Shown in pieces: positions 43,550 through 50,983 of a stretch of DNA of 64,000 nt. The DNA lies in contig MHAZ01000006.1 of the NCBI GenBank assembly GCA_001803165.1, positions 1,428-65,427 on the forward strand, given 5' to 3'. The notes beneath the pieces were generated by a model. That model worked only from the letters and a program-made list of their open reading frames with translations. It was not told the DNA's origin and made no database searches. Source of the stretch: Stygiobacter sp. RIFOXYC2_FULL_38_25 (GTDB lineage Bacteria; Bacteroidota; Ignavibacteria; Ignavibacteriales; Melioribacteraceae). Each line of letters begins with the position of its first letter. The first letter of the stretch is position 1. The translations under genes and the position numbers were made by a program.

Positions 43550-43623
43550 GGCGCTGTACCCAAGTGGCTTAAGGGGAAGCTCTGCAAAAGCTTTATTCGT
43601 CGGTTCGAATCCGACCGGCGCCT
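43550..43623 (+). tRNA. tRNA-Cys (GCA)
   Basis: Acceptor GGCGCTG/CGGCGCC with U73, anticodon arm AAGCT-CTGCAAA-AGCTT gives GCA. T-arm GTCGG-TTCGAAT-CCGAC is intact. CCA is not encoded. Partial copies of this gene lie downstream (clear) and upstream (tentative). Confidence 0.94.
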
Positions 43624-43654
43624 CTACCAATCCCGCTAACCCGGGATTTTTTGT
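43615..43654 (+). repeat. 40-bp direct repeat, first copy (tRNA-Cys 3' end plus terminator)
   Basis: Covers the acceptor 3' strand of tRNA-Cys and its terminator. Identical to 43739-43778 over 40 bp. Confidence 0.93.
43629..43652 (+). terminator. Terminator after tRNA-Cys
   Basis: AATCCCG and CGGGATT form a 7-bp stem, loop CTAACC, followed by a T-run. Confidence 0.88.
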
Positions 43655-43675: not shown

Positions 43676-43778
43676 TTATTCGTGGCTTCTCCCGAAGGGA
43701 CTCCTTCGGAGGAATCCGACCCGTCATTGTCGGGCAAGCCGGCGCCTCTACCAATCCCGCTAACCCGGGATTTTTTGT
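43676..43778 (+). pseudogene. tRNA-Cys 3'-half remnant with two palindromic insertions
   Basis: TTATTCGT (43676-43683) and GAATCCGACC correspond to the variable region and T-arm of the intact tRNA-Cys. The T-loop is interrupted by a hairpin CCGAAGG-gact-CCTTCGG, and a second insert containing CCCG/CGGG follows GAATCCGACC. The acceptor strand and terminator (43739-43778) are an exact 40-bp copy of the intact gene. It cannot encode a functional tRNA. Confidence 0.75.
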
Positions 43779-43965
43779 GTCCATAAGTACTAACGTTTCA
43801 GGATTGCATTCCAAAAAAGTGGCGAAGATTCAAAAGTAATTATTCAGAATTCATCTGCGTAAATCAAAAAAAATCAGTTTAATCCGCGTTCTATTTTTCT
43901 GTTAAATAATTACTTTTGCTGTTGCAGATGGTTAATTCATGCAACTTGTCCTAAAGGTTACTTTT
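43779..43965. other. Intergenic region before the glycosidase gene
   Basis: From the tRNA-Cys remnant to the glycosidase start nothing codes convincingly. A stretch AAATCAAAAAAAATCAGTTTAA is AT-rich; AAAGG before the ATG at 43966 serves as ribosome binding site. Overlapping frames through the tRNA region (43431-43763 plus, 43593-43814 minus) are not genes. Confidence 0.6.
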
Positions 43966-45936
43966 ATGAAACAATTCACACTTATTTTAGCCACAATTAT
44001 TTTATTCCAAATTTTAAATCTCGCGCAACAACAAAAAAGATGGGATTTAACATCCGACGGAATAGTCTGGAACATCAAAAGTGGAGAAACCCATTCCGAT
44101 CATATTGAAATGAGCGGAAAAAAGGTTTCAACCGTTGTAAGATATAAGGTAGCTGAGGATGGAGCTTTAGAACTAAGCAGAAGCGTTGTGTGGCCTCTCT
44201 TGCGTACTATCCCGAATAACACTCACGCCAGTTTAACCAGAAGATTTTCGATAGATATTCCCTCTCTCCTAATCATCAATGGCAAAAATCCGGTGAATGA
44301 AAAGGTGCAATCCATTTCTCACAACGGATTAATGACAATTATAAGCAAGTTCGATCCGGGCGTTGAAATTAAACGGATTCTATTTCCTTCTTACAATCAG
44401 CCCGCTTTCTGCGAAAGTTATTCTGTTAAAAACATTTCTTCGAAAAATTTAACTATTGAGATTCCGGAGCTGAAGAATGTTTACAAAACTTTACCGGAAG
44501 CCGGTGTAGAAGGAAGTTATTTCCCTACTGTCAAACTTTACAATTCCGGCACTTTCAAAGTAGAACCGGAGAAAGAAATTTCATTTTCAGTTGCATTCAT
44601 AGGTAACAGAACCGACGAAGATATTTTTGTTGATGTTAACAAAGAACTGACTGAGAGAATCAAATTCATAGATATCATAAAAAATCAGTTAGTCTTTGAA
44701 TCGCCCGACGAAGTTTTGAATAAAGTTTTTCAATTTGCAAAAATCAGAGGCTCCGAAAGCATCTACGAAACCAAAGGCGGATTCATGCACGGACCCGGCG
44801 GCGAATCTTACTATGCCGCAATCTGGGCTAATGATCAAGCGGAATATATTGGACCATTCTTCCCTTATCTCGGTTATGATATTGGAAACAAAGCCTCCTT
44901 AAACGCCTACAAACATTTTGCACGTTTCATGAATCCCGAATACAAACCAATTCCAAGCTCGATAATCGCGGAGGGATTAGATATTTGGAACGGTGCCGGC
45001 GATAGAGGCGATGCGGCAATGATTGCTTACGGCGCAGCTCGGTTTGCATTGGCAAGTGGAGATAAAAATATTGCTAAAGAACTCTGGAAACTTATAGAAT
45101 GGTGTCTTGAATACTGCAATAGAAAAATTGATAAGAACGGCGTAGTCGCTTCCGATTCCGATGAACTTGAAGGAAGATTTCCATCCGGCAACGCAAACCT
45201 CTGCACATCATCACTTTATTATGATGCGTTAATTTCTTCAACCTATTTAGTGAAGGAATTAAATCTTCCAAAGAAAGATTATTTGAAACAAGCTGAACTA
45301 TTGCGAAAAAATATTGAGAAGCATTTTGGCTACACTTTGAAAGGCTTTGAAACCTACAGATATTATGAAGGTAACGACAAACTACGCGCATGGATCTGCA
45401 TACCTTTGACTGTTGGAATCTTCGATAGAAAACAAGGAACGATTGACGCTCTTTTTTCTCCCCAGCTTTGGACAAACGACGGACTTGCAACAGAAGAAGG
45501 TGACAAAACATTTTGGGACCGCTCTACACTTTACGCACTACACGGAGTTTTTGCCGCCGGCGAAACCGAAAAAGCGATTGACTACTTAAAATATTATTCC
45601 AATAGAAGACTGCTTGGTGATCATGTTCCTTATCCGGTTGAAGCTTACCCGGAAGGTAACCAGCGCCATTTATCAGCCGAGAGTGGCCTGTATTGCCGAA
45701 TAATTACAGAAGGAATATTTGGAATTAGACCGACCGGATTGAAAACTTTTACCCTCACCCCCCGTTTGCCTAAAGATTGGAATAATATGAAGCTGAAACA
45801 TGTAAGATTGTTTGGAGAAGATTTTGATATTTCAGTCACCCGCAAAAATGAAAAGCTGGAAGTGCAGATAACTAAAGGGAAAAAATTATTCTCCAAAACG
45901 ATTAAGAGCGGAAGTACATCAGAGATTGAATTGTAA
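43966..45936 (+). CDS. Exported six-hairpin glycosidase-like protein
   Basis: Protein of 656 residues with a signal peptide (MKQFTLILATIILFQILNLAQ), an N-terminal beta-sandwich (about 25-240) and an (alpha/alpha)6 barrel-like domain (about 260-600) with GGFMHGPGGESYYAAIWANDQAEY, EGLDIWNGAGDRGDAAMIAYGAA, NDGLATEEGDKTFWDRSTLYALHG and PVEAYPEGNQRHLSAESGLYCRI (each quoted within limits of clear signature). It fits the six-hairpin glycosidase superfamily (GH63/78/95-like) without a family I can name. The acidic residues in WANDQAEY, NGAGDRGD and LSAESG are candidate catalytic positions. ATG at 43966 is preferred to 43939 because it begins the signal peptide. Confidence 0.75.
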   Translation: MKQFTLILATIILFQILNLAQQQKRWDLTSDGIVWNIKSGETHSDHIEMSGKKVSTVVRYKVAEDGALELSRSVVWPLLRTIPNNTHASLTRRFSIDIPSLLIINGKNPVNEKVQSISHNGLMTIISKFDPGVEIKRILFPSYNQPAFCESYSVKNISSKNLTIEIPELKNVYKTLPEAGVEGSYFPTVKLYNSGTFKVEPEKEISFSVAFIGNRTDEDIFVDVNKELTERIKFIDIIKNQLVFESPDEVLNKVFQFAKIRGSESIYETKGGFMHGPGGESYYAAIWANDQAEYIGPFFPYLGYDIGNKASLNAYKHFARFMNPEYKPIPSSIIAEGLDIWNGAGDRGDAAMIAYGAARFALASGDKNIAKELWKLIEWCLEYCNRKIDKNGVVASDSDELEGRFPSGNANLCTSSLYYDALISSTYLVKELNLPKKDYLKQAELLRKNIEKHFGYTLKGFETYRYYEGNDKLRAWICIPLTVGIFDRKQGTIDALFSPQLWTNDGLATEEGDKTFWDRSTLYALHGVFAAGETEKAIDYLKYYSNRRLLGDHVPYPVEAYPEGNQRHLSAESGLYCRIITEGIFGIRPTGLKTFTLTPRLPKDWNNMKLKHVRLFGEDFDISVTRKNEKLEVQITKGKKLFSKTIKSGSTSEIEL

Positions 45937-45940
45937 TTTA

Positions 45941-45970
45941 TATAGCCCCAGGCTTAAGCCTGGGGCTATA
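45941..45970. repeat. REP palindrome, copy 1
   Basis: Perfect 30-bp palindrome with half-site TATAGCCCCAGGCTT. It is followed by a second small hairpin TGGGCTTTAGCCCA (45989-46002). The block 45941-46003 matches 50498-50560 with two differences in 63 bp. Lies between the glycosidase and the NTPase-nuclease gene. Confidence 0.95.
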
Positions 45971-46052
45971 AATTAACAAACAAATAAATGGGCTTTAGCC
46001 CAACAACTTTATAAACCCTTTATTCTCCAATTAAAATATGTTACTCTTTCCA

Positions 46053-49000
46053 TTATACCAACCTGCAATCTAGCACAAAAGGCTCTACTGATATTTCCTC
46101 TTGAGATAACTCATCCGCTTGTTTGGCAAAATATTTTTCAATTTCCTTCAGTGTTTTGTTTCTTCCAACACTTCTTTTCACTCTACCATCCCTTTTATCC
46201 CAACTCTCACACGTAAACCATCCGGCAATATAAATACCATACTTAGTTTGATTTCTTTTAAGATATCTATCAGCCAATTGAGACTTCATAGCCGTCAAAT
46301 AATCTTTGTTAAAACAGCATTTCACCTCAATTATTAGCTTGAATCTGTCGATCACTTTTTGGTTTACGTCATATTTAACTGACTCTACAATTATGTCTGG
46401 TTTCTCACCAGCTACCTTACCTCTCCTCCCTCTAATTTCAACTTCTCTATTAACAAGGACATTTTCCAAATCTTTTTTAAGGTATCGTTTAATAAAATTT
46501 GACAATTCTGTTTCTTCCTTTGGCGTGGTTTTTTCCGGTTTAGAGTTCCAGAGAAATTTTACAGCCGGAGTCTCTCCATGTAATTCTCTTTGAAATCTTT
46601 TCAAAGAATCAACCACAATTCTTTGTAGATCATCTTCGTTCTGTATATATCGTTTTTTAGAATTGCTTATTAGTTGTTTAAATTCACCTAATGACTGTGG
46701 CTGCCATGATTTAGCTCTTGTTACAATATTTGACTCGTATTCCACTCTACTTAACCATTCAATTTCAGGTAGTTGTTTTTTAAGAAGTTTTATTACTTTG
46801 TGAATATCTTTTTTACCTGCAGATTTCAACTGGTTGATTATTGAATCCCTTAGCCTAAGAACCTCGTCCTCGGCAGTAACTACATGAATTCCTCTCTTAA
46901 ATTGATCGAACGGCATAGAAAAGTTTTTTGTAATCCATACAACCAATTCGGACAACTCTTTAGCATTAAGTTCTTCAAAGTAATTAATGTTTGCTTTTCT
47001 AGAATAAGGTAAACGAAGGATCACTTTTTTACCTATTTCATCTGGATATTTTTCAATTAATTGCCAGATAATTTTCCAGAACTCTCTTGTTCTATAAACC
47101 ATAAGCGTGCTGCAACCAAAAACTATTTTCTGTAATATATTGGCATCTGTAGGTAAAGGTTCTGAAATTAGACTAAAAAAGAAATATTCAGCAGGTTTAT
47201 AACTATGTCTAAATAGATATTCCAGCAAGTCAGAAAATTCTCTTGGGCGAGTTTCTCCATTTTTAATCCTATCTAACACGGCAACAGAAACGGTATCATC
47301 CCAGCAATCTTCAAATTTGCTGAGTATAGATATATCTCCACTATTTACTTCTTTATCCAGAATAATTTTGAATGCATTCAATGAATCATTAGATGCTTTA
47401 TTAAAGCTAATTGCAATTATTTGTTTCTGAAATATCTGATTCTCCGTTTCAGCATAAGATGGATATTCAATAATTGATGCTGCCCACTTTTTCCAAATAC
47501 TTTCATCAAGCGATGTAATAAACTCTATATCAGTCTTGAATAACAAAGAAATTGCTCGATAACCAGCCCTCGAAGAATGATAATAAAAATTTTGCCCCAA
47601 CCATTTATTAGGGAATGGTTCAGCTTCTAACAAATATGTTTTTGATGAATCGATTATTAATTTTTGTTGTTCTGAGTCAAGAAACTTCCAGCCGGGAAAT
47701 GTTTGCACATCATAAGCATGTTCGCCTACATTCTTTTTATTATCCTCGGGGTCGTACTGTAAAAGATTAAGTATTTGCCAATAAGCATTTATTTCACCCG
47801 CGTTCAATTCAAATAATCTTTGAAAAACTCTCTCCTCCCAACCCAATCTTCTTAAAGGACTTTTATCACTATGAACACGAGGTTTATCAAATTTCAAATA
47901 TCTCTTTCTGCGTTTTTTAGCCTCCTCCGAGCTTAGTTCTATTGGCATCAACCAATAAGAGAAAATTGTGCTAACAATTACATTCTTTCTTGCAATCAGC
48001 ATGAGATATTCGCTATCGGTAATGTTATTTATATCAAAGCTCCAACTAGCTAGTGTGCCCCATACTCTTGATTTTTTTTCATTATTTTCTTCTACTGTTT
48101 TCTTTATGAGCCAGGAAAAGTCTTTTGCTAAAACCAAATTGATATTGTGATCTATAAATAGTTCTATTTCATTCACTTCATCCGAGAGCGAATCAACAAT
48201 TGCAGTAATTAATCGACGCCTCTTGGAATCTTCCCTTTGCAATTCAGCTCGAAATTCTTCTTTGAACTTTTTCTGAACTATCTCATCATAATTTCTTTTT
48301 AGCCGCTTAATTGCCTCTACGTATGCATTTAGTACTTCCGACTTTTCAATATTTTTCCATCCCTCATACATTATATAATCTATGAGATCCTCGTAATCAT
48401 ATAAGGCAGCGCCATGTCTGGTTCCAAGCGTACCGACCCAATTAAGAGCAACTGGCAAATCGCACCAGTTAATTCCTTCTACAACTATTTTATGTATTAA
48501 ATGGAAAAACCTACCCGTATAGTTTGTGTTTTTAGGTCTACTTAAAAAAGAGAATAATTCTTTAGTTGACATGATTTTAGGCCAAAGTGCAGTCAGACAA
48601 ATTGTTTTTAATTCATCATCTCCATCTTCTAATAAGTCAGTAGCAAGTACATTTTTCATTTTTTGTAAACATGGTTCGTCAGCTATTTTGTATAAGCACC
48701 AACCTGCGTCTACCCGAATGTTTAGCGAATCTTTTCTATCACAAAATACTTGTATTAAGTCGTCCAATAAGTCAACTTGCTTGCATTCTCTTGCGATCAA
48801 TATTGCTTCTGCTCTTACAAGCCAATTTTTGTTTTTCCCACGTATAAACGGGCGTAACTGTTTTGCTAAGTCTGTGTGGATTAACTTTTTGTAATGATTT
48901 TTAAAAGAGTACTTGAGATCAAATAGTTTTTGTTGTTCAAAACTTACTAATAGATTTCTAATCAAGAGTTTTTTTGCATTTTTATCATGCAACACAAGAT

Positions 49001-50237
49001 CACATTTCAGCAAAACTTCGGGATTATCTTTTACAAGATATTTGTATATGCTTGGTTTCATTGATACTAGCCATGCAACTGTTTCATCTAGATGTGGAGT
49101 TATCTTTTTTTCTCGAAATGTTGAATCTATAACTAAACTAAATATTTGTTCATCACTAACATTTGTATTCAACAAAAATCTTGCTGTTAAAAATTCAGCG
49201 TAACTTTGATGTGCCCACCCCATTTTCCCTTTACCACGTGAGGAAAATAACCCACTATCAATTACAGATTCAATTACTTTTAAACTAGTATCATCATCTA
49301 TTATCAAATCTTCTTTTGCCAAACCAGCCACATCTTTGGTATAACTGTAATCATTGTTAATGCTATTGATACTACATAGTACTGTAATTGCTGCAATTCG
49401 CTCCGCAATTTTCATTTTTTGAGCTAATGGAAATTTTTCGATTAGTTTCGATTCCTTTCGGCTTGTATTTGGGTCCTCAATGAGAAACCGGAGCCCCTCA
49501 TCATATAATTCTAATCGTGAACTTGGTAGTTGTTTTTTCTTTTCAAAAAGGTCTACGAGAAAATTAAAAGTGATCGGTTTTATTGCTAGTGGTTGCACCT
49601 CCTTTTCAATGATTTGGTTTAGAAACTTCTGTTGATCTATTTGTTTTTCAACACATGCTAGTCGAATATCTTTTTCTCTAAGAGGTACCAATTCAATAAA
49701 TCTAAGATTTTCCTTTCCCCATATCGTTTCCAATCCCTTTTCAAAATTGTTTGGACATTCTGCTGTTCTACATGCAACCCTTAAAAATAGATTATCATAG
49801 TACTTCAGTCGAATTTTTTCACTTAGAATTTGTGAAATTGTATCAATTCGAAATCTACATTCATCTAGACTATCAAGGAAAATGTAGAAGGGAATATTCT
49901 CTTCACGGCAAGCATTCAGCTTTTCAGATTCAAATAAGTCGCTCGATAAATCAGTTAAATCGTTATAAACGTTCAAGTCCAAGTTGATTATTTGCTTATC
50001 GGGGTTATCGACAAATCTCTTTGTAGTTTCATATATATTCATGATCTCAGTTGACTTACCCATTCCGGGTTCTCCTAGCAAGACGATGCAAGGATACATT
50101 TGAAATTCTTCAAATGGTTGAGCATCTTGCTTTGCATACACTCTATACTCTGATTCTGGATCATATAGGAATCCATTTATATCGAAACTTATTTGTCCAT
50201 CCCTCGGGCACCAAAACCTTTTCCACTTATAATTCAT
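46053..50237 (-). CDS. NACHT/STAND-like NTPase with C-terminal PD-(D/E)XK domain
   Basis: Giant protein of 1394 residues. N-terminal P-loop NTPase: Walker A GEPGMGKST (55-63), Walker B FYIFLDSLDECR (117-128), sensor-like RVACRTAECP (about 153-162), and the NACHT-type HQSYAEFLTARFLL (about 357-370). A long helical-repeat region follows (about 400-1150, HEAT/ARM-like). The last about 130 residues look like a PD-(D/E)XK nuclease: Asp1281 (KPDIIVES), Glu1304-Val-Lys1306 (IIEVKCC), Gln1320 and KYGIYIAGWF. NTPase, repeat sensor and nuclease on one chain is the plan of antiviral STAND proteins, but with the nuclease at the C-terminus instead of the N-terminus. ATG at 50237. Bracketed by REP repeats next to a REP transposase. 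An anti-phage role is inference. Confidence 0.85.
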   Translation of the reverse strand: MNYKWKRFWCPRDGQISFDINGFLYDPESEYRVYAKQDAQPFEEFQMYPCIVLLGEPGMGKSTEIMNIYETTKRFVDNPDKQIINLDLNVYNDLTDLSSDLFESEKLNACREENIPFYIFLDSLDECRFRIDTISQILSEKIRLKYYDNLFLRVACRTAECPNNFEKGLETIWGKENLRFIELVPLREKDIRLACVEKQIDQQKFLNQIIEKEVQPLAIKPITFNFLVDLFEKKKQLPSSRLELYDEGLRFLIEDPNTSRKESKLIEKFPLAQKMKIAERIAAITVLCSINSINNDYSYTKDVAGLAKEDLIIDDDTSLKVIESVIDSGLFSSRGKGKMGWAHQSYAEFLTARFLLNTNVSDEQIFSLVIDSTFREKKITPHLDETVAWLVSMKPSIYKYLVKDNPEVLLKCDLVLHDKNAKKLLIRNLLVSFEQQKLFDLKYSFKNHYKKLIHTDLAKQLRPFIRGKNKNWLVRAEAILIARECKQVDLLDDLIQVFCDRKDSLNIRVDAGWCLYKIADEPCLQKMKNVLATDLLEDGDDELKTICLTALWPKIMSTKELFSFLSRPKNTNYTGRFFHLIHKIVVEGINWCDLPVALNWVGTLGTRHGAALYDYEDLIDYIMYEGWKNIEKSEVLNAYVEAIKRLKRNYDEIVQKKFKEEFRAELQREDSKRRRLITAIVDSLSDEVNEIELFIDHNINLVLAKDFSWLIKKTVEENNEKKSRVWGTLASWSFDINNITDSEYLMLIARKNVIVSTIFSYWLMPIELSSEEAKKRRKRYLKFDKPRVHSDKSPLRRLGWEERVFQRLFELNAGEINAYWQILNLLQYDPEDNKKNVGEHAYDVQTFPGWKFLDSEQQKLIIDSSKTYLLEAEPFPNKWLGQNFYYHSSRAGYRAISLLFKTDIEFITSLDESIWKKWAASIIEYPSYAETENQIFQKQIIAISFNKASNDSLNAFKIILDKEVNSGDISILSKFEDCWDDTVSVAVLDRIKNGETRPREFSDLLEYLFRHSYKPAEYFFFSLISEPLPTDANILQKIVFGCSTLMVYRTREFWKIIWQLIEKYPDEIGKKVILRLPYSRKANINYFEELNAKELSELVVWITKNFSMPFDQFKRGIHVVTAEDEVLRLRDSIINQLKSAGKKDIHKVIKLLKKQLPEIEWLSRVEYESNIVTRAKSWQPQSLGEFKQLISNSKKRYIQNEDDLQRIVVDSLKRFQRELHGETPAVKFLWNSKPEKTTPKEETELSNFIKRYLKKDLENVLVNREVEIRGRRGKVAGEKPDIIVESVKYDVNQKVIDRFKLIIEVKCCFNKDYLTAMKSQLADRYLKRNQTKYGIYIAGWFTCESWDKRDGRVKRSVGRNKTLKEIEKYFAKQADELSQEEISVEPFVLDCRLV

Positions 50238-50497
50238 CGAAGTAATCCTTATTGGTTTAGAATCTTTCGAATTGCCAAGAAAATGCTTTCATTATATTTT
50301 CCCCAAATCTATTCATTGTGTTCAACACCGACTGCTTCATCCTAATGCCAGCTAGTCGATGGGGTAGAGAGAATTTGTAGTTTTACCTTCTTTTGAGTGC
50401 ACTTAATAAGCCTAGTTCAACTCTGTAAACAAAATAACATTTAGATATTAATTATTCATCCCATTTTTCGGTTAAAGCCGTTTTATTCTGGAATTAA
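50238..50497. other. Upstream region of the NTPase-nuclease gene
   Basis: About 260 nt with no ORF. On the minus strand TAGATTTG (50311-50304) matches TAnnTTTG 67 nt before the start codon, but no -33 partner at the usual distance is seen. AAGGA eight bases before the ATG is the likely ribosome binding site. Near the REP end, CGGTTAAAGCCG (50469-50480) forms a small hairpin similar to one at 51029-51039. Confidence 0.5.
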
Positions 50498-50527
50498 TAT
50501 AGCCCCAGGCTTAAGCCTGGGGCTATA
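50498..50527. repeat. REP palindrome, copy 2
   Basis: Same 30-bp perfect palindrome as copy 1 (half-site TATAGCCCCAGGCTT), followed by the small hairpin TGGGCATTAGCCCA (50546-50559), which contains the stop codon of the transposase gene. Confidence 0.95.
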
Positions 50528-50551
50528 GATTAACAAACAAATAAATGGGCA

Positions 50552-50983
50552 TTAGCCCAATAATTTCTCCTTAGCCTCATTCATAAAATTCTCATACTCT
50601 TCACCAAAAGATTTCACTTTATGATGCTCTTCTTGATTCGCGATATAATTTCTAACTCTCTTTACAATAGAATCACTAACAGAATAAGCCATATAATCAT
50701 CTTGCCACTCAAACTTACCTGGAATCAATTTGTTTTTATTCACCCAGAAGGAGGATTCTCCCTTAATCAACATGACAACTTTGCTAATTGTCTGTTCCGA
50801 GCCAAGAGATATTAACAGATGAATATGATCGCTAACGCAATTCACAGAATCAATCCATATTTCTTTTTGTTTTGCGTTGGATTTAATATGCTCAATTAGC
50901 TTTGGTTTTAATTCCTTAGCGATGAGCTTATCTCTGTTTTTTGTAGCCCAGATTAAATGAATCCAGATTTTAATCATTGGCAT
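50552..50983 (-). CDS. REP-associated tyrosine transposase (IS200/Y1 type)
   Basis: HUH single-strand transposase of 143 residues: HUH motif HIH (His53, His55 in VSDHIHLLISL) and catalytic Tyr113 in RNYIANQ followed by HH. WATKNRDKL near the N-terminus is typical of the Y1_Tnp family. It acts on single-stranded DNA at palindromes; REP copies flank it on both sides (50498-50527, 51057-51086), and its own stop lies in the small hairpin attached to copy 2. ATG at 50983 has GAGGGG upstream. Length is full for the family, so it may be active. Confidence 0.9.
   Translation of the reverse strand: MPMIKIWIHLIWATKNRDKLIAKELKPKLIEHIKSNAKQKEIWIDSVNCVSDHIHLLISLGSEQTISKVVMLIKGESSFWVNKNKLIPGKFEWQDDYMAYSVSDSIVKRVRNYIANQEEHHKVKSFGEEYENFMNEAKEKLLG

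Follow-up and report, generated by a model that had tools for sequence, protein, structure and literature searches.

Bacterial STAND proteins are described as carrying their effector at the N terminus and their sensor at the C terminus (PMC12169576; PMC13092281), the effector of bNACHT25 being a PD-(D/E)XK domain (PMC12169576). Two families, EruA (NF058535) and HyoA (NF058534), are labeled 'NACHT domain-containing antiphage protein' in NCBIfam, where 'antiphage' is the database's name; a literature search for EruA and HyoA returned no antiphage paper under either name, and EruA was matched as the name of an AIEC regulator and of a university network.

Here, we describe an EruA-like gene from a 64,000-nt stretch of DNA (the whole of which is referred to as the window, and within which all positions are counted). 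Its product is quite probably a single-gene STAND/NACHT immune sensor of an EruA-like group with an inverted layout, in which the NTPase comes first and is followed by a sensor solenoid and a nuclease effector. Domain content and order, intact motifs, predicted folds, and the exchange of tails among relatives were observed; a role of the gene in phage defense is inferred.

Domain architecture of the EruA-like protein

The gene and the domains and motifs of its product are located as follows.

46053..50237, minus strand: EruA-like NACHT-HEAT-nuclease gene; 1394 aa, single unbroken ORF with ATG start
48948..50102, minus strand: NACHT NTPase module including the winged-helix region; residues ~46-430 (AlphaFold2 model, VIA/Foldseek matches)
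50049..50075, minus strand: Walker A GEPGMGKST; residues 55-63, with Lys61
49860..49877, minus strand: Walker B LDSLDE; residues 121-126 (homolog conservation)
49179..49223, minus strand: NACHT winged-helix motif MGWAHQSYAEFLTAR; residues 339-353 (homolog conservation)
46728..48875, minus strand: HEAT-like helical repeats, presumed sensor; residues ~455-1170, with 600-1170 assigned presumptively
46056..46646, minus strand: predicted C-terminal PD-(D/E)XK nuclease domain; residues ~1198-1394 (AlphaFold2 pLDDT 90.2)
46278..46445, minus strand: catalytic series Glu1265, Asp1281, Glu1304-x-Lys1306, Gln1320; invariant in 27 of 27 aligned nuclease-type sequences

An earlier note on this DNA had proposed a single chain of 1394 residues, and the ORF is indeed intact from its ATG; the strand, which that note did not give, is minus. 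In a Pfam search all matches to the protein were sub-threshold (NPHP3_N, HEAT_2, and AAA_22), and nothing beyond chance level was obtained against the PADLOC 2.0.0 models, Avs included.

Residues 1 to 600 were modeled with AlphaFold2 at a pLDDT of 84. The best fold match of the NACHT model in VIA/Foldseek comparisons was NAIP5-NLRC4 (Z 19.6 over 334 residues), with further matches to NLRP3, NLRP7, and NOD2. The P-loop pattern GxxGxGK[ST] was retained in all 53 aligned homologs, G55 being replaced by S in two GT4 forms, and the stretch of the winged-helix motif at residues 341-352, WAHQSYAEFLTA, contains WAHQSYAEFL. With a Walker A motif, a Walker B motif with its acidic pair, a winged-helix region, and an NLR-like fold, the protein belongs among STAND/NACHT proteins, and the NACHT-like P-loop NTPase that had been read from the N-terminal sequence was upheld by both motif conservation and fold. 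Residue 1 of the model aligns close to residue 130 of NLRC4, so the position of the CARD is vacant in the window protein. No effector domain was found N-terminal of the NACHT in the AlphaFold2 model, in which just ~45 residues precede the module and the NTPase core starts at about residue 50.

HEAT-like repeats begin near residue 455. The earlier estimate of about 750 residues of helical repeats holds by alphaREP/HEAT profile matches for residues 467-549 and by modeled helices as far as residue 600, where the model ends; from 600 to 1170 the repeats presumably continue. Profile, fold, and deep conservation all support the presence, on a single chain, of a NACHT module, repeats, and a predicted C-terminal nuclease. 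The motifs are conserved in homologs, so the set did not arise by chance; relatives are encoded at 65 loci in roughly ten phyla.

The C-terminal domain as a predicted nuclease

Structure prediction of the two termini gave a NACHT fold for residues 1-430 and a PD-(D/E)XK fold for the C terminus, whose model shows the core elements in the order typical of that family. Among the leading VIA rows were PaqCI, BamHI, EcoT38I, Can2, and McrC (Z 8.4-7); these Z values are modest (top 8.4), and restriction endonucleases head the list. Foldseek alone returned a weak list with no match below E 0.001; the fold call rests on the VIA matches together with the motifs. We regard the predicted PD-(D/E)XK assignment as secure because E1265, D1281, E1304, K1306, and Q1320 are invariant; by fold and by its E..D..(D/E)xK residues the domain is a predicted nuclease. 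The D...EVK...Q domain of the earlier note, the reading of which hinged on a nuclease fold at this end of the protein, was thus borne out at a pLDDT of 90, with D1281, E1304, K1306, and Q1320 unchanged across the aligned set.

A different use of such a domain would be that of a restriction-like, NTPase-coupled nuclease in the style of McrBC or type I/IV systems, in which the C-terminal domain would meet foreign DNA and the NACHT would power or gate cleavage, with no infection-triggered oligomeric death. The nuclease fold does resemble restriction enzymes and McrC, and the repeats could bind DNA; however, the NACHT fold is of the NLR type and not that of McrB, and we consider this reading unlikely.

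Exchange of C-terminal domains among relatives

Many cyanobacterial proteins resemble the window protein as far as residues 1190-1221, beyond which a different tail follows. Five carry a CHAT protease tail, confirmed by Pfam in both of those scanned (L059, 1e-10; L069, 1e-7) and assigned in the remaining three by sequence likeness. Another five end in a hydrophobic-segment tail, nine in a small domain (eight mutually alike, L058 distinct), and three in a short tail. Two Rhizobiaceae plasmid proteins have a GT4-conflict tail (Pfam E 3e-109 in the one scanned).

Six tail classes were mapped onto a core tree computed by a quick method from residues up to 1180 in 52 rows. The tree demands at least 13 changes of tail class, against a mean of 21.9 for shuffled labels, so the labels are still clustered. 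Exchange is also visible in single pairs: L057 and L079 have cores 84% identical, one with the nuclease and the other with the small domain; the cores of L067 and L078 are 86% identical, with a CHAT and a small-domain tail, respectively; and L060 and L079 share tails that are 90% identical, whereas their cores are merely 42% identical. The sequences indicate that the C terminus after residue ~1195 is an exchangeable effector slot behind a retained NACHT-repeat core.

CHAT, GT4-conflict, and PD-(D/E)XK are effector families. Since the tails belong to such families, the best reading places the effector of the protein at its C-terminal end, and the reading is strengthened because relatives swap exactly this segment for known effector types. 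Replacement of the slot by CHAT, GT4-conflict, or hydrophobic segments with the rest of the protein kept is not expected of a DNA-restriction enzyme. It bears as well on the idea of a C-terminal sensor domain that binds nucleic acid, with the effector elsewhere or acting in trans. This is suggested by the known Avs-type STAND proteins, in which the C-terminal part is the sensor, by relatives with short tails or an adjoining VapBC-like pair, and by the absence of the motif Asp from two EruA members and of E-x-K from one EruA-like member. We find it quite improbable, however, because the full catalytic set is present in all full-length nuclease-type relatives of the window's own group, the tail replacements are known effector families (CHAT, GT4-conflict), and no alternative effector candidate was found within the protein or adjoining it.

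The short C termini of L074 and L086 contain DSNVQGGVQTLQGDNNQQ, reminiscent of the amyloid signaling motifs of bacterial NLR-like proteins. In ten cyanobacterial homologs (L054, L056, L057, L060, L065, L070, L079, L093, L103, and L105) a PIN-domain (VapC-like) gene directly follows the NACHT gene on the same strand; most of these loci have a clear ~80-aa VapB-like ORF between the two, and their tail classes differ, which may point to a three-gene module.

Distribution of relatives and genomic context

A search of GTDB genome contigs with the single sequence returned no relatives, and a profile of three sequences was used to obtain the 65 loci from GTDB genomes, mostly at 26-40% identity. These came from Cyanobacteria, Bacteroidota, Nitrospirota, Planctomycetota, Bacillota, Chloroflexota, Lentisphaerota, Desulfobacterota and kin, Alphaproteobacteria, Acidobacteria, and two archaeal bins. 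A 792-residue one-frame version, from which much of the NACHT-repeat middle is absent (L095 and L096), looks identical in archaeal and Desulfobacteraceae bins and is probably one contig binned twice. A tblastn search of plasmids gave full-length homologs in Dolichospermum (31.6%) and Bradyrhizobium (26.4%), in both cases on conjugative plasmids; those from Rhizobium, Sinorhizobium, Rhodococcus, and Streptomyces were partial. No relative turned up in viral contigs or phage records, and 145 relatives of the host genome yielded no further full homolog, just two short marginal P-loop matches. Within the host phylum, a threshold of E 0.001 gave matches to the EruA model in 40 of 296 genomes, many confined to the NTPase; two proteins in the same survey exceeded the EruA cut-off, and EruA-like proteins were scattered through the phylum.

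The gene has a G+C content of 33.6%, versus 38.4% for the window (standard deviation of 1.5 points over 4-kb windows), and is flanked by the following elements.

45941..45970, no strand: 30-nt perfect palindrome, solo copy beyond the 3' end of the gene, inside a 78-bp unit (45932-46009)
50498..50527, no strand: second, identical copy of the 30-nt palindrome, in the interval from the gene to the transposase
50552..50983, minus strand: REP-associated-type Y1 (HUH) transposase; Pfam Y1_Tnp 6e-27, single copy in the genome
51057..51086, no strand: variant 30-nt palindrome on the far side of the transposase

The 78-bp unit is 92% identical to the transposase-element end (50489-50566). The gene had been placed earlier between REP repeats beside a HUH transposase; the palindromes and the Y1 transposase are there, but the palindromes are not dispersed. 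Their pattern occurs in three copies in the 4.4-Mb genome, all at the NACHT-gene locus, which rules out ordinary dispersed REPs. It looks as though a solo end lies on one side of the gene and a complete element on the other, and a unit of ~5 kb may have been mobilized jointly. We conclude that this is probably an accessory gene gained by horizontal transfer, perhaps together with the HUH transposase and palindromes beside it. A clean empty site was sought in the contigs of relatives and not found, the shared sequence comprising just DUF5686, TonB, and a next-gene fragment. Also in the window, a neighboring 665-aa ORF (43939-45936, plus strand) matches no family and is nearly without relatives among 56 same-family genomes, and identical 40-nt direct repeats lie at 43615-43654 and 43739-43778, 124 nt apart.

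Other neighbors in the window are housekeeping genes (prfB, PCMT, and nuo), and the window does not look like a defense island, a few generic matches but no convincing defense neighbor being found in it. Some homologs do adjoin defense genes: L061 lies beside Hma, L073 beside type I restriction, and L049 beside BREX genes. Such neighbors would also suit a restriction-like nuclease; many homologs adjoin ordinary genes instead. The housekeeping neighbors could suggest a chromosomal regulator or housekeeping NTPase outside defense, acting for example in programmed cell death or stress control, and such a role would agree with the enrichment of homologs among cyanobacteria, of which many are filamentous and rich in NACHT proteins without a known role. 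Against it stand the patchy presence, plasmid carriage, and lack of a conserved operon in the window's group, as well as the AT-rich stretch with its transposase and the rapid exchange of tails, and we judge it very unlikely.

The reading as an accessory defense gene is supported by near full-length similarity to EruA, patchiness, low G+C, presence on conjugative plasmids, and some defense-gene neighbors. Weighing against defense are an EruA score far under the cut-off, the housekeeping neighbors, the apparent absence of an island, and the many homologs with ordinary neighbors.

Proposed mode of action and implications

As an immune sensor, the protein would be held inactive with ADP in its resting state. 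The HEAT-like solenoid in the middle would recognize a signal from the invader, probably one of the phage's proteins; ligand on the repeats would free the NACHT for ATP binding and, presumably, oligomerization. Clustering could then bring about dimerization of the C-terminal PD-(D/E)XK nuclease, which may degrade phage and/or host DNA, so that infection would be stopped, perhaps abortively.

It is fairly likely that the protein represents a widespread inverted NACHT branch, in which the sensor is kept and C-terminal effectors are repeatedly swapped (nuclease, CHAT, GT4-conflict, membrane segment, and adaptor-like). If so, one sensing scaffold would feed many killing outputs from the end of the molecule opposite to that used by known bacterial STAND systems. 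An effector behind the sensor also poses the question of how NACHT oligomerization activates something ~800 residues away, and the natural tail swaps are ready chimeras for tests of effector modularity. This branch has no model in PADLOC 2.0.0. Only its near-EruA and near-HyoA members are already named, in NCBIfam; the swapping of tails among the ~65 relatives is new.

Comparison with EruA, HyoA, Avs proteins, and animal NLRs

The nearest named families are EruA and HyoA, and not the Avs group to which the protein had been likened. The EruA match scored 213.5 bits (E 6e-63; curated cut-off of 1000 bits), with residues 118-1391 of the protein aligned to positions 71-1317 of the 1318 in the model. 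The two share their length class and the order of NACHT, long helical region, and nuclease-like C terminus, but the window protein, falling below the cut-off, is EruA-like and not EruA or its equivalog. It also has the motif Asp, which the two over-cut-off proteins lack (KRAAIRIS). Among EruA-like proteins, nuclease motifs are degraded in L011, L012, and L017 (Asp to Ala; E-x-K lost), suggesting that catalysis has been lost in some members.

The HyoA match was weaker (151 bits, E 4e-44; cut-off of 1200). HyoA has the NACHT first and a similar core, and HyoA-like proteins bear a C-terminal E..D..ELK..Q domain, but the repeat region differs. Compared with the window nuclease profile by hhalign, the EruA-like and HyoA-like C-terminal profiles matched at 98.8% and 96.2%, respectively. 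Because these profiles and the tails of EruA members match, the nuclease-last order is a property of a wider, partly named group: the reversed STAND order proposed earlier stands insofar as the nuclease is last and nothing precedes the NACHT, but it is not unique to this protein.

Like Avs and bNACHT proteins, the window protein combines effector, NTPase switch, and sensor on a single chain, and its PD-(D/E)XK effector type also occurs in bNACHT25. Their effector is N-terminal, however, whereas here it is C-terminal; with an NTPase core from about residue 50, the tripartite layout with the effector before the NTPase does not apply. Membership in Avs1-5/AVAST was ruled out, no Avs profile of PADLOC being matched. 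The animal NLRs NLRC4, NLRP3, and NOD2 share the fold of the NACHT module but have a CARD or PYD before it, where the window protein has none. NLRP1 carries a C-terminal CARD and is, to our knowledge, the nearest eukaryotic parallel for C-terminal placement.
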